Source: Aliamphritea spongicola (GTDB taxonomy: Bacteria; Pseudomonadota; Gammaproteobacteria; Pseudomonadales; Balneatricaceae). Taken from it: DNA of 64,000 nucleotides. The stretch spans positions 2,232,001 through 2,296,000 of the forward strand of contig AP025283.1 in NCBI GenBank assembly GCA_024347235.1, written 5' to 3'. Below, piece after piece: positions 24,922 through 32,600 of this stretch. The stretch's first letter is position 1; each line of letters begins with the position of its first letter. The notes under the pieces are model-generated. The model saw only the letters and a program-made list of their open reading frames with translations. It did not search any database and was not told where the DNA came from. A program made the position numbers and the translations under genes.

Positions 24922-26581
24922 TTACTCCCCGGTCAGTTTGATGCGTTTCTGCGTCAGCTCACCGTCGTCACCGGCGGGCCAGTAGAGGTCTACGCTGACA
25001 CTGGCGCTATCATCTTCGAGATTCGTATTCACCATCAGGAAGTTATGCTGGCCCGAGAGGGCATATAACCGGGTGGCGTAACCGCCTTCATAGCCGGTAA
25101 TTTTGCCGGTGCTGCGGATCAGCATCTCTGCTTTGGCCGGAGCGGGCTTTCTGGAGATGGCGCTGGAGGTAGCGTTGAACACTTGAGCGTTAGGGAATTT
25201 ATCCCGGTTCTCCAAATGATAGACACTGGCGCTGTGCACATCACCACTGAGTACCGTCACCGGGCAGCCCTGTTCATGGGAGCATTTCAGCATGGCATCC
25301 AGCAGAATATTCCGTTCCTTATGGTTGGTTTCGTGCTCCCATTCGTCCCGCAGGTCGTCTTTAACCGAGCCGATATCCATCATGGACACCAGCGCCCCCA
25401 GTGCACCACCGGTACCGGCGAGACAATGAACAGGCTCTTGCAGCGCTGGCTGGCAGACTCCAGCCACTCCAGCACCCGTTGCATCTGCTTAGCGCCCAGC
25501 AGGGCGGTGCCGTCTTCATGGCGTTCATAATCGTGATGGCCGCGCATGTCCAGCACATAGAACCCGTGATCCCCATGCGGAAGCTGTAATCCCCTGGCAG
25601 TCTTCATTGTCTTCAGGCTTCAGGGAAACTGGTGTCTTCGGGTTATGGCTGTGCTGATACTCGAAGTAGACCTGCTTGGCTGCTTCAAACATCAGCTGGA
25701 TTAACTGGTCGTTGGTGGCTTCATCGTCGTCCTGAAAGAAGCGGTTCAGCAGCTTGCTGCGTTCCTCCTGGTATAGGAGCCCCAGCCATCCATGATTTCA
25801 TGGTCATCCCAGATCATATAAGTAGGGAAGCGCTGGAAGGTTTTCTTCAGATTCGGGAAATTCCAGTACAGGCGGTAATAGGTCCGGTAAACCTCAGCGA
25901 AGTACTTAATCAGCGCCTGCTTTTTCAGTGCGCCGTTTTCAGAATATTCTTTGATGATGGCGTTCTTGTAATCCCCAGCCAGTCCCACACGGAGTACATG
26001 TCTTCTTTATCGTTGGTATCGATATACACCTGATCACCGCCGCCGATGGAAAACAGGCCGTTACGGTTCACCATGGTCTGGTAATACAACGGCCAGGCGC
26101 CTTCGCTGTGGCTCACGGAACTGAACGGATCGTGGCAGCTGAAGTAGCCGAATGTCAGGTTATTAAGATCAGCGGGCAAGGCATGGAAGAACTTCTTCCC
26201 CTGGTGGCCAATCTCAGTGCGGCGGGGAATACGTTCAGCATCCGCCAGATCAGCAATGACCGCGTAATAGTATTTGCGGCCGGCCTGTAAACCGGTGACG
26301 TTAAACACCGCTGTGTTATCGGTGGATGCGTCGATTTGCTTCGCCTGAGAGAACACGGGGTTCGCCGCTTGTTTTACCAGAAACTCATCAACATTCAGGC
26401 CGTCCAGCGTATCCAGATCTCCCTGTAATGGCTTTTCTGTGACGATCAGCCACCATTTAGCTGCACAGTACATACGCACCCAGAGGCGGCAGGTTTTGGC
26501 AGTCATATGGCCGATAATGGCTAGCGAGCCGAGTTTAGGGTGATCCTGTTCAACATTGGCGGGATTCCGTGGGAAGTACAT
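24922..26581 (-). CDS. PhoD-like metallophosphatase/phosphodiesterase (frameshifted)
   Basis: About 554 residues. An N-terminal beta-sandwich (about 15-150) precedes a metallophosphoesterase-like core with FGYFSCHDPF, IGGGDQVYIDT, IWDDHEIMDGWG, the YVLDMRGHHD block and LSGDVHSASVYH. These are the metal and substrate contacts of PhoD-type enzymes. No signal peptide or Tat motif precedes them, unlike secreted PhoD. At least four frame breaks (near 25990, 25780, 25590 and 25415) interrupt one continuous family alignment; one of them may be a two-base loss. The start is ATG 26581 behind a strong taaggaga site. Confidence 0.85.
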
Positions 26582-26856
26582 ATCTATCTCCTTATAGTTA
26601 TATACCTGCTGCACTGAATGACACGGGCAGCAGAGGCTGAATCTTGTCAGTGTGCCCGGGCGGGCAAGGCCTATAAGGATAGCTGTTAATGCATGGAAAA
26701 GGGTAGCCTGAACCGGAAGCTGTTTGTGCTGCTGATCAGGCATTTCCAACGGATCTGCTGAATATCCGTTACTTCAATGCTGAATCCGTTATAATGCGCG
26801 CCCCTATGCTGTGCGCCTGCGACGCACGGCAGGTTATGAAGTAGCAGGAGCGAGCA

Positions 26857-27820: not shown

Positions 27821-28419
27821 TTAATCCCACCACAGATAAACTGAGTTCGCTTGCCTAAGGTAATTGCCAATATCGTTAATATCACCTGATCCCTGGTCGA
27901 TGATATCCGGGCAGAATGCGTAGATCTCTTCCTGAAAGGCCGCTATGTCGTCAGGTAAGGTTTTAAAAGTAAGTTGTATGGTGTCACTTTCTGCCTGCCA
28001 TATATCAATCCCGTACGCTTTATCCCACGATTCGAGCCGGCTTACGATTAAGTCGTTTGTTAAATCATGATTAATGCCGTCAGTCTGAGCGACTTTTAAG
28101 ATATCGAGTTGGTTGTCAGAGGCGAAAACGACTAATTCAGCTTCCCTGGTCCTTCCGGTAGAATTCGTGTGGTTCCTATAAATGCGATAGCACCCTCAGG
28201 AAGTACTTTGCGTACACGTTCAAGAGTTTGCTCTACATCGTTTGTCGGAATCAGAGCAGATACTGCTTTTAAGTATTGTTCTCTTCCAAAGTTCTGAGTA
28301 GAAAATTGCCGTACAGGGGATGTCACTTGAGTGGAAAGGGATGCAGACAGCTCTTGTAACGTGGGGGCGGCAATACAGATTTGGCTAATCAGAGCCAGAA
28401 TAAACGCAGAGAACTTCAT
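27821..28419 (-). CDS. DUF4253-domain protein with signal peptide (frameshifted)
   Basis: About 199 residues. It begins with a signal peptide (MKFSAFILALISQICIAA). One G in the ggg run near 28146 joins the first part (AIAFIGTTRILPEGPG) to a C-terminal half that ends YAFCPDIIDQGSG and SVYLWWD. The FCPDI/LWWD ending is typical of DUF4253, whose members are often linked to SMI1/immunity-like folds. An exported form is unusual in my view. Function unknown. Confidence 0.8.
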
Positions 28420-28700
28420 TGGTACATCCTTTTAAATAGCGGTGATGTTTTAATCCGTTAAAACGGGCATGGGGTGTTCAGCGATAACTCATTGTCCGAA
28501 GTTTCGCATTGCATACTTTTAATTTGAACATGTAACTGAACAATAGAAAAACAGTTCTTGCTCTAATCCTAAAAGTCTCCTGATTCATTTCTCTGTAAGC
28601 CCCGTCATACCTACCTGTAACACGAAAACACCCAAGTTGACCGCTCAGTTGAATCAGCTTTATAGTCCTTAGTGAGGCGTCGAAACCTCATTTACAAGCG

Positions 28701-28869
28701 GACAGCCAACACCGTTATGTTGGTTTTTGTGCCACAAATGTGGTACAAACTCCCGTATGTCGGGAGGGCGGTGAATATAATACCCTTATGGGGAAATAAG
28801 CCCGCGGTCTCTTGTAACCGTTTCGAACCTCCCGGCACCCCACGGATTGGGGCGTATTTCGAAAAATAC
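28701..28869 (+). promoter_or_regulatory. Hairpin-rich leader/operator region upstream of the 131-residue ORF
   Basis: Five inverted repeats are stacked in 170 bases: ccaaca/tgttgg (28706-28723), tttgtgccaca/tgtggtacaaa (28726-28749, one G-T pair), ctcccg/cgggag (28750-28766), cccc/gggg (28838-28852) and gtattt/aaatac (28854-28869). The last ends just before aaggagg. A tataat hexamer lies between the third and fourth. The first three could be operators and the last two part of a structured 5' leader. The rest of the gap from 28420 to 28700 shows no gene. Confidence 0.55.
28776..28781 (+). promoter_or_regulatory. Perfect -10 hexamer (tataat)
   Basis: The hexamer is at a plausible distance (about 100 bases) from the downstream start codon. 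No recognisable -35 box is present at 17 bp spacing, where a palindrome stands instead, suggesting activation or repression by a bound protein. Confidence 0.45.
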
Positions 28870-28882
28870 AAGGAGGCCAGGT

Positions 28883-29278
28883 ATGGCTAACCATCAAATC
28901 GATAACGTGGTGTACACACTGCGTTCCTGCTTCAACGACTCTCAAGACACAACACCGCTCACCACACTGGATGCCCGCATCAACCTGACACGGCTGTACG
29001 ACTACCGCGTGCTGGATATCGGCACCATGGGCATGTTCGGCAGCGTACAGGGCGAGCTGATTCACATGCTTAACGATTGGGATGCCGGAACCATCCCCAA
29101 CCCGGAAGAACTCCGCAACCTCATGTGGCGATACGCCAGCGTACTGCGCTGCATCGACTTCGCCGACCGCTTTATGCTGGTTCACAGTGAACCGCTGGAG
29201 CCGAATAAAGAAGTAGAGGAGCTGCGTAAGCGGCTGAGTTCACAGCTGCATAACCGAACGCAGGTGGTGATGTCGTAG
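28883..29278 (+). CDS. Hypothetical protein, 131 residues
   Basis: An intact frame with a strong aaggagg site seven bases before ATG 28883. The protein is soluble, helical and acidic (GELIHMLNDWDAGTIPNPEEL) with no signal peptide or membrane segment. GC content is like the host and unlike the AT-rich NTPase gene that follows. I recognise no family. The elaborate upstream hairpins suggest tight control. Confidence 0.75.
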   Translation: MANHQIDNVVYTLRSCFNDSQDTTPLTTLDARINLTRLYDYRVLDIGTMGMFGSVQGELIHMLNDWDAGTIPNPEELRNLMWRYASVLRCIDFADRFMLVHSEPLEPNKEVEELRKRLSSQLHNRTQVVMS

Positions 29279-29696
29279 GGGCTGGTCTGTTTCAGATAAT
29301 TTCCTGAAGCTTGAGAAGGTTGAAGTATGTAAATAAGCTGCTGTAAATCTTAGGAGTCTGGGTCAGGAACTAATTTGGTTCTGGTTCTGACTCCAAATAT
29401 CTTGGGATTAAAGTGGGATTTTATCGTTTGCTTTATCCCAAAGTAGAAAAACGTTTCAGATTAATTGTGTCTTGTATTTCTTTTATGCAAACTGGGCTAG
29501 ATGGACATGTACAGTATATCTCTGTACTCATTGATCAATGAGTTACTCAAAGATCATGGATGAGAATGCAGTAGCTATCTTTAGCTTTTCTCTTATAAAA
29601 ATGAAATTTGGAAATTAGAGGGCTGTAAATTTTTGCAGTCGCTTTAAAGGTTTCATGTCATTTCGTTTCCTGAAGGTAACATTAAGTTAATATCGT
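29279..29696. other. Non-coding gap with an imperfect inverted repeat
   Basis: No gene is visible in 418 bases. An imperfect inverted repeat at 29353-29394 (outer arms ggagtc/gactcc, inner caggaac/ggttctg) may be a terminator for the upstream gene. The right half becomes AT-rich and presumably holds the promoter of the NTPase gene. Confidence 0.55.
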
Positions 29697-32600
29697 ATGA
29701 TTAAGACTATCATCTCCCTAATACGCTGGTCTGCCAACAGTCTCAATCGCATTGTGTTTTGGCTGGAAAGCAAAGACTATTCTGTCGATATACAATCTAA
29801 GTACGTAGATCTAGCTCCAACAGATGAGGCGGATAAAGCTGGCGTATATTCTGAAGCGATTCTGTATGCGATGAATAATGCGAAGGTTTCTAATATTGCC
29901 TTAACCGGTCCCTATGGATCTGGAAAAGCAGCATCATCCAATCTTTCTTGAAGAATTATCGGCATCCTGCACTTCATATTTCTCTGGCTGCATTTGTTCC
30001 AGAGGCGGATCCTGGTGAGGAGAAGGTGAGTCGTCAAGAAATTGAGAGAAGTATTCTGCAGCAGATGCTGTATGGTGCTGACGCAAACAAGCTTCCGCTA
30101 TCAAGGTTCAAAAGAATTCGGTCTCCCGGTGTTTGGTCGGTATTTAAATCTTTTACATGATGGTTGGAATTGCCGCGCTTTGGTATGTTTTTGATCAGAG
30201 TGAGGATATCTTCAGCGGTACTTTCTTCCTTCCGCTCGAGCTTAGTAATTGGCTCAATCTAGGAGCTTCGCACTCGCAGCAATTTTTCTCTGGATGACCT
30301 TGCATCACTTTTATGTTGCTAGCTTTGGTCTGTCACTCAAGAGCATTTCTTTGAAAGATATTGAGATAAAGCCAGCTCGTGATGATCAAGAGTCAATACT
30401 AAATCGTCATTTAGACGAAATAATCTATTTTTTCAATCTACCGATTATGACCTTGTAATTATTGAGGATTTGGATCGTTTTAACGATGCTGAAATCTTCG
30501 TAACCCTACGAGAAATTAATAGTCTTGTTAACGAAAATTCAAGTGTAAAGCGTAATATTAGGTTTCTCTATGCTCTGCGTGATGACATGTTTGTTAACAC
30601 AGATCGAACCAAGTTCTTCGAGTTCATTATTCCTGTGATACCGATCATCAATACATCGAATTCTATTGATATGATACTGCATCAGGGAGGAGACTCGAGC
30701 TCGATGATCGCTTAGATCGGCAGTTTCTGCGAGAGGTTTCACGATATCTGAATGACCTGAGATTAATTCAGAACATATTTAATGAATTCGCTATTTATGT
30801 GACCAATTTAGAAACTGATGGAGAGAACTTGCTTGATGCTAACAAGCTTCTTGCGATTTTGATTTATAAAAACGTTTACCCAAGGGATTTTGAGCGACTG
30901 CATCGTGGTACGGGTATTCTTGCTGAAATATTGAATCTTCAGGAGGAACTCATTGAAACGGGTGAAACCACGTATAGAAGAGAAATTGCGAAACTTGAAA
31001 AACAGTTGGAAATCGCAGAACAACAGGTTCCTTCGGATCTGAGAGAGTTGAGACAAATTTATGCTATGGCTCTGATTGAGAAACTGCCAGCAAATCATGA
31101 CAGCGTTAGTGTTGATAGACGCAATTGGATCAAGCTTTCCAAGTTGAGCAGCCACGATGAACTAGAGCTATTTATTAGTGCTACACGTCTGTCTAGCCGT
31201 AATGACTATTATAATAATGAGAGTCAGATTGACGTTTCTACATTGCAGAATGAGGTGGATTCTCAAAGAACTTATCATCAACGCATGACTGAGATTGAAA
31301 ATGGCGCTACTGATAATAAGAATAAAAGTTTGCGTGAAATACATGAGTTAAGATCTAAGCTTGCAGTTATTCGTACGACTAAGCTAGATGAGTTGTTGCG
31401 TTTGAACACTAATCATGCGCATGGACTTTTGAAAAGTTTGGGGAAAATGGTGAGCTGGCCCGTTTTTTGGTTTTAGAGGGTTATCTCGATGATACTTACT
31501 ATCAATATACATCACTCTTTCACTCAGGCCGCTTGTCGCCTAATGATAATAAGTTTTTAATCCAGATAAGAGCATTCGTAACCCCTGAACCTCTTTTTCC
31601 AATCGATAATCCAAAAGAAGTTATTGCAGCGATGCGAGATGAGGACTTCCGGCAAAGTTATGTCTTGAACATTAAACTTGTTGATAGTCTTTTGAGTGGC
31701 GAAAGCAATTACACCGACCAAACGAAGAAACTGTTTGAGTTTCTTTCGAATGAATTTGAGACCTGTGAAGAGTTTTTTGATGTCTATTATACCAGTGGGC
31801 GAAATATTTTAGCTCTGCTTTCGGGTTTGTTAGATTATTGGAAAGGTTTTATTCCCGCTGTTATTTCTAGCCCCAATAATATCGTCCATGTTTCCCAACT
31901 AGTTGCAAGCCTACAAGAATCTAAGCTCAAAATGTTAGCAAAGGACTTTGATGGGGTTCCTAAGTTTGTTTCGGAGAAACTTCCGGAGATATTGGTAAAC
32001 GTACCTGAGTTAGAACCGGAACGCCTTCTATGCCTCAATTTTGAGGTCAAAGATCTAAATTCCATCAAAGAACATTCAGAAATTGCACGTTTCATGTTTG
32101 AGCAAGGGCTCTTTGAGCTTACGATTGCGAACATAGAATACGTTTTTGAAGTAATTTTAGGAGAAAAGAATTTAGAGTCATTACGTACCAGAAATTACAC
32201 TACTATTCGTTCGGCGAGTAACGCTGTTTTGAAGACACGTGTAGAACGCGATTTTGACAGTTACTTGCGTGATATCCTTTGTGCCTTCAAGATAATTTAG
32301 AGGAAGACGCTTCTGCAATTCTTGCTGTCATACGTCACGATAATCTTGATCAGGTTGATCTTCAAGGGTTTCTCGAACGGCAAATAACTAAGTTGCCAAC
32401 ATTAGAGAGTGTGCCTGAGAGGTTGTATGCATTGTTGTTTCAACTGTATAAAATTGAACCAGCTTGGGATAGTTGTCTTACTTTTATGGAGATTGATGAG
32501 TTCGATGCAGAGATTTTTATAGGCTATCTCGATCGAGATGATGTACGTCATAAAATCTTGGAATGTCCTATTCCAAGCGAGCCAGACTTCTTTCAATTGC

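Follow-up and report, generated by a model that had tools for sequence, protein, structure and literature searches.

The leader of an open reading frame (ORF) for a 131-aa protein raises the question of whether its dense hairpins form a promoter with an operator or a functional RNA and, in the latter case, on what that RNA acts. In the window (the whole 64,000-nucleotide stretch of Aliamphritea spongicola DNA that was analyzed), the initial annotation had counted five inverted repeats between positions 28690 and 28882, three before and two after a tataat sequence. The repeats are present, but we counted six of them, three before and three after tataat; the last hairpin directly adjoins AAGGAGG, as that annotation had stated, and overlaps the ribosome-binding region. 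The fold of 28690-28890 had a predicted energy of -77.8 kcal/mol, compared with -59.3 kcal/mol (sd 4.8) in 200 dinucleotide shuffles (z = -3.87), none of which was equally stable (0/200).

A search with Infernal cmscan showed that positions 28759-28844 of the forward strand match the Rfam family RF02221 (sRNA-Xcc1) over model positions 1-87 of 87. The score was 65.1 bits against a cut-off of 53, and the E-values were 1.7e-9 in a scan of the whole window and 2.7e-11 in a 1-kb scan; no other Rfam match was found in the whole window at the gathering threshold. The earlier remark that the leader resembles no known riboswitch thus overlooked a known RNA family. We consider it probable that this is a C4-like antisense RNA, cut from a transcript, which represses translation of the neighboring gene. 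The elements of the locus are as follows.

28637-28666, forward strand: predicted sigma-70-type promoter, TTGACC - 18 nt - TATAGT, 10 of 12 matches, upstream of all hairpins
28706-28723, forward strand: inverted repeat CCAACA/TGTTGG, then TTTTTGTG
28706-28731, forward strand: terminator-like hairpin, formed by CCAACA/TGTTGG and TTTTTGTG
28726-28749, forward strand: 11-bp inverted repeat tttgtgccaca/tgtggtacaaa, between the terminator-like hairpin and the RNA
28750-28766: inverted repeat CTCCCG/CGGGAG
28759-28844, forward strand: RF02221 RNA, read as a C4-like antisense RNA; P1, 28759-28767 with 28828-28836; P3, 28805-28820
28776-28781: TATAAT
28805-28820: inverted repeat CGGT/ACCG
28838-28852: inverted repeat CCCC/GGGG
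28854-28869: inverted repeat GTATTT/AAATAC, abutting AAGGAGG (28870-28876)
28883-29278, forward strand: ORF of the putative target gene, 131-aa protein

Guide boxes and their two complementary sites

Two segments of the window RNA are complementary to sequences on either side of it. The third stem has the loop CUCUUGUA, which is the complement of the bases around the Shine-Dalgarno (SD) sequence (UACAAGG), and J3/1, the segment GUUUCGAA between stem 3 and stem 1, is the complement of UUUCGAA just before the SD region. The boxes and sites are located as follows.

28674-28701, forward strand: upstream target, the hairpin GAGGCGTCGAAACCTC followed by TTTACAAGCGG, complementary to both boxes; window duplex, -26.0 kcal/mol
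28809-28816, forward strand: Box 1, the P3 loop CTCTTGTA, complementary to the SD region UACAAGG
28820-28827, forward strand: Box 2, J3/1 GTTTCGAA, complementary to TTTCGAA before the SD region and to TCGAAAC upstream
28857-28876, forward strand: downstream target TTTCGAAAAATACAAGGAGG, which holds the SD sequence AAGGAGG; window duplex, -23.6 kcal/mol

In relatives, we oriented 81 bacterial RNA places and defined a qualifying start codon as one with an SD match of at least 4 bases located 20-60 nt after the RNA. From the order and class samples, we used the RNA places for which a locus sequence was obtained. The viral matches numbered 131 (88 + 43), of which 9 were left out by hand because of low scores, truncation or unusual length, leaving 122. 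An SD-preceded start at this distance was present at 65/81 bacterial places and in 89/122 viral rows, and was missing at 16/81 and 33/122 places, respectively. We merged loci with a similarity of roughly 80% or higher, which gave non-redundant sets of 41 bacterial and 39 viral loci; the window itself is absent from the 41 because near-alike loci were collapsed. Alignment A1 left out a further 7 of the 41 bacterial loci by hand.

The ribosome-binding regions are predicted to pair better with their own RNAs than with swapped ones. The mean duplex energy was -21.27 kcal/mol for own and -14.55 kcal/mol for swapped combinations in the 41 bacterial loci, and -20.70 versus -13.17 in the 39 viral loci; in both sets 0/20000 permutations reached the observed value. 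For 15 of the 41 bacterial guides the own target ranked first, and for 4 it ranked 24 or worse. An ungapped count that takes no account of energies gave the same picture: at least five of the six nucleotides before the SD sequence were paired in 30/41 bacterial loci (26.8% when swapped) and in 28/39 viral loci (27.8% when swapped). Four of the six corresponding bases of the window were paired in this ungapped count, and its gapped duplex reached -23.6 kcal/mol. Within genomes carrying several copies, the RNAs paired with their own ribosome-binding sites at -24.0 (n = 29) and with those of the other copies at -18.1 (n = 38); the window RNA was predicted to bind the ribosome-binding region of the other copy in its genome at -23.5, compared with -23.6 for its own.

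The upstream site, which we regard as the analog of C4 a1b1 and P4 seqA, behaved in the same way. Own combinations averaged -28.28 kcal/mol and swapped ones -21.86 in 40 bacterial loci, and -29.65 versus -21.51 in 39 viral loci (0/20000 permutations each). Among the bacterial controls, a far-upstream segment was weakly shifted (257/5000, 36 loci) and a segment inside the ORF showed no shift (2171/5000, 40 loci); the two viral controls gave 8955/20000 (37 loci) and 1834/20000 (39 loci). Within multi-copy genomes the upstream values were -28.3 for own sites and -22.4 for those of other copies. In the second copy in the genome of the window, loop and upstream site have changed together, to CUUUAUG and CAUAAAG, respectively. 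As a comparison with an established system, the own-versus-swapped test was applied to C4, in which 14 of 20 loci had a qualifying start codon and 12 were left after collapsing; it gave 0/20000 at both sites in these 12 loci. The initial annotation had proposed a structured RNA and translational control, and had named covarying stems in relatives as the check. The pairing is indeed kept and co-varies in relatives, the stems were not found to be lost, and translational control is very likely.

A switch in which upstream bases compete with P1 was also considered because of the CTCCCG/CGGGAG repeat. Own combinations were not better than swapped ones in the 41 bacterial loci (3298/20000) and slightly better in the 39 viral loci (-7.70 versus -6.74, 11/20000); such a switch is not supported as a general feature.

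Likeness to C4 and competing explanations

The locus can be described as a unit of approximately 0.65 kb that would comprise a promoter, the upstream target, a terminator-like hairpin, the RF02221 RNA, the downstream target with its ribosome-binding site and the 131-aa gene. The most likely start of transcription is near 28673; part of the transcripts probably end at 28723-28731, and others would read through. The three-stem RNA of 28759-28844 would then be excised from the read-through transcript, with RNase P as the probable maker of its 5' end. Its P3 loop and the J3/1 segment would pair with the SD region and the preceding bases and thereby block translation, and the same two boxes could pair with the upstream site. 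Such an action would be that by which the P1/P7 C4 RNA silences an antirepressor gene. Here the membership in RF02221, the position of the RNA before genes, the two targets that co-vary with the guides and the downstream families were obtained by computation; promoter, termination, processing, action in trans and repression are inferred.

The base before the RNA was T at 61/80 places, and the two bases located one position after P1 were C at 73/81 and 77/81 places. A T at -1 and CC after the stem fit RNase P substrates, and this enzyme probably makes the 5' end of the RNA.

C4 is described as having three stems and a length of about 77 nt and as being cut by RNase P from a larger transcript, with one loop partly over the ribosome-binding site of the target and another binding upstream (PMC5320573). 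C4 and RF02221 each have a model of 87 positions in which P1 encloses two stems, and they share one box on the ribosome-binding site and one just before it, as well as a further target site on the upstream side of the RNA; in some RF02221 loci an antirepressor-type gene lies downstream as well. They differ in P1, which has 9 pairs in RF02221 and 17 in C4 according to the Rfam models, and in P2, which has a conserved internal loop only in RF02221. In Rfam, C4 (RF01695) belongs to clan CL00128 and RF02221 to no clan, and the c4-a1b1 target is RF03163. No C4 match was found in 28400-29400 at E-values up to 10, in 15 RF02221 loci at E-values up to 5 or in the genome of the window (E 0.001, strict filters). 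Conversely, a 3'-half model of RF02221 found nothing in 20 C4 loci, and the full model reached at best E 0.11 in them, in register in one locus. This homology test was weak because model R1 had 7 base pairs and R2 had none. The c4-2 family (RF02944; named in PMC11701678) had no match in 28400-29400 or in the 15 RF02221 loci scanned. By analogy, the RF02221 RNA most likely works like C4, and the sequence homology is not significant.

Complementary sites flanking an RNA are also found in P4 CI and Gifsy-1. P4 CI is described as a processed RNA that is flanked by the complementary sites seqA and seqC, and at Gifsy-1 IsrK/STnc1160 the short IsrK RNA stops at a terminator ahead of the processed RNA (PMC4825925). 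P4 CI is described there as acting by transcription termination, whereas a simple folding model gave no such support for RF02221. In that model, predicted terminator formation averaged 0.38 when free and 0.36 when the upstream site was occupied (65 of 76 loci, with a T-run). Occupancy thus brought no rise (16 up, 16 down, Wilcoxon p 0.56), and we make no claim of attenuation. With a control segment occupied instead, the mean was 0.49 (21 up, 7 down).

The strongest competitor is a purely cis-acting leader, in which the P3 loop and J3/1 would pair with their own ribosome-binding site and a ligand, temperature or a protein would open the structure, with no separate RNA. The distance of 20-60 nt from RNA to start codon at 65/81 places is in accord with it, and so is the predicted centroid fold of the window, which pairs the target intramolecularly; moreover, the strongly conserved AAUACAA-ACC...GGGAAUA of P2 is needless for an antisense RNA. 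However, a discrete 88-nt RNA with ends mapped by RACE is documented in Xanthomonas (PMC2996969, in part), there is another target on the upstream side of the RNA, the parts are arranged as in C4, and the recognized downstream families are regulatory or toxin genes rather than metabolic ones. We judge a cis-acting leader to be improbable.

A free trans-acting small RNA, with host or virulence genes as its real targets and the neighboring gene as an incidental one, would agree with the published HrpG/HrpX control (Chen 2011, as cited in later work) and with the host and plant targets predicted in Xylella (PMC12189769, in part). The guide boxes, however, co-vary with the adjacent ribosome-binding site across many unrelated genes, which makes this explanation very unlikely.

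Predicted promoter, terminator-like hairpin and the 11-bp repeat

A promoter scan of 28420-29400 yielded no promoter-like site other than 28637-28666. This site is weak when taken alone because shuffled sequences average 0.8 sites; its TTGA and ATAGT are, however, invariant across 8 aligned units, that of the window included (alignment A6). From the sole scan site and its invariance in the 8 units, the transcript probably begins ahead of the entire set of hairpins; the scan does not suggest a start beyond the last of them, the outcome that would have spoken against a structured leader.

The "perfect -10" of the initial annotation finds another explanation, in that tataat is a variant of a conserved part of the RNA. 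The second stem (P2) of relatives carries the block AAUACAA-ACC...GGGAAUA, of which the AATATAATACC of the window, containing tataat, is a variant; equally, the supposed -10 is a variant of the conserved AAUACAAUACC motif of the RF02221 RNA. Of the 8 paralogous units, 7 carry the 11-bp repeat unchanged, and the remaining one (L024) has another sequence that still forms a GCGCC/GGTGC hairpin; comparison of the 8 units revealed nothing in favor of an operator role. That the tataat at 28776-28781 is the -10 of the gene's own promoter and the 11-bp repeat its operator has hardly any chance of being right, since a TATAAT is present there but coincides with the AAUACAA-ACC block, the scan gave the upstream site alone, and another hairpin replaces the repeat in L024.

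The hairpin of 28706-28731 was absent from the output of a terminator scan. A T-run of at least 5 upstream of the RNA was present in 59/76 RF02221 loci and in 16/76 control stretches. By eye, the upstream terminator in many loci (e.g., L072, L129 and L178) reads approximately CCGC(A/G)CCCGNCAG...GCGGTTTTTTTG(T/C)G. These upstream terminators are more alike than termination requires, and the terminator loop may have a further role.

Downstream genes and distribution of the RNA

The window unit has relatives at other sites: its similarity to L002 and L021, which have other flanks, spans approximately 28621-29273, and we regard it as a stand-alone unit of about 0.65 kb because the similarity ends where the flanks differ. 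A second RF02221 copy in the same genome, at 3495653-3495739, also precedes a relative of the 131-aa gene. Members of this gene's family occurred in 3 of the 116 genomes that represent the taxonomic family, and these three belong to a single genus; the RNA lies upstream at 8/8 places, with a broken frame in L024. Third codon positions changed most in all five paralog pairs compared (e.g., 11/7/30), and since such changes prevail, the gene probably encodes a real protein under selection.

The 131-aa protein had no match in Pfam, PHROGs, NCBIfam or PADLOC and none among PDB sequences up to E 1. Pfam recognized no antirepressor or toxin domain in it, SymE_toxin included, and no relative was encoded in the plasmid records searched (E 0.001). 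Its AlphaFold model had a mean pLDDT of 51.6, too poor to search. None of the scanned ORFs near the window unit was a phage gene.

Among 65 bacterial downstream proteins (Pfam, E 0.001), we found Rha in 9, SymE in 8, Bro-N in 6, KilA-N and ORF6N in 2 each, and AntA, ORF6C, a LuxR-type domain (GerE) and Sigma70_r4_2 in 1 each; these families can co-occur in one protein. The 39 viral downstream proteins contained Rha (9), Bro-N (7), KilA-N (6), P22_AR_C (5), P22_AR_N (3), ORF6C (3), AntA (1), ORF6N (1) and five other families (1 each). Rha, Bro-N, KilA-N, AntA and P22_AR are families of the phage antirepressor type, and SymE is a toxin. The remaining downstream proteins, more than half of the 65 bacterial ones, were without a Pfam match. 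In the three phage records examined, a gene annotated as ant, antirepressor or kilA-N directly follows the RNA.

At E 0.001, and with the genome of the window counted, RF02221 occurred in 13/116 genomes of the family (11 of them with scores above the cut-off), in 24/293 genomes of an order sample (16 over the cut-off) and in 26/369 genomes of a class sample (12 over the cut-off). In viral contigs, at least 120 stretches fit the pattern of the conserved block; 28 phage records (25 from Vibrio and 3 from Escherichia) and 11 plasmid records matched the window's leader.

The window RNA agrees with RF02221 as published in that its sequence and structure score along the whole model exceeds the curated cut-off and in that it precedes a gene, as the RNA does symE in Xanthomonas integron cassettes (PMC12444791, in part). 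The published family has been described as a trans-acting Xanthomonas small RNA that is possibly related to virulence; the passages found contain neither the two co-varying sites nor the link to antirepressors. In those from a 2025 integron study of Xanthomonas, the most widespread cassette has sRNA-Xcc1 upstream of symE, and a divergent mechanism is supposed (PMC12444791). The excerpts of a 2025 Xylella study report seven sRNA-Xcc1 copies, including a cluster of five, four members of which were found in vesicles; they also predict bacterial and plant targets and list C4 separately (PMC12189769). A literature search found no paper naming both sRNA-Xcc1 and an antirepressor.

It is possible, and we propose it tentatively, that RF02221 is a portable antisense module of the C4 type coupled to many unrelated genes, which in this genus silences, as a stand-alone unit at several sites, a 131-aa family of undescribed antirepressors, toxins or defense effectors. 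If so, the supposed virulence RNA of Xanthomonas and Xylella would be an immunity RNA of the phage type. Should the target be the adjacent ribosome-binding site, the host and plant target predictions found in the Xylella excerpts (PMC12189769) would need redoing; RF02221 annotations would in that case often mark a gene that is kept silent, be it a phage antirepressor, a toxin or an uncharacterized effector, and the numerous orphan genes that follow the RNA would form a list of candidates. The antisense reading is simple to test because guide and target are both readable from the sequence.

Several minor observations concern individual loci. At 29697-31476 of the window, a YobI-like P-loop NTPase domain (Pfam PF20693) has its start in one ORF and its end in another, in a different frame; this points to a broken gene or to frameshifts introduced by sequencing. 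On the reverse strand at 24922-26749, parts of a PhoD-like phosphatase (a weak PhoD_N and a PhoD_2 match) also lie in separate ORFs; a split by assembly frameshifts is possible, the genome completeness being 78%. One contig of genome G036 has three weak RF02221 matches (L026, L027 and L028), 221 and 283 nt apart; L027 and L028 are without a well-placed SD-preceded gene, and the tandem array is somewhat like the one reported in the Xylella excerpts. Two copies of the unit, at L002:846-919 and L004:3547-3620, lie near a tRNA gene; tRNA genes are common integration sites.
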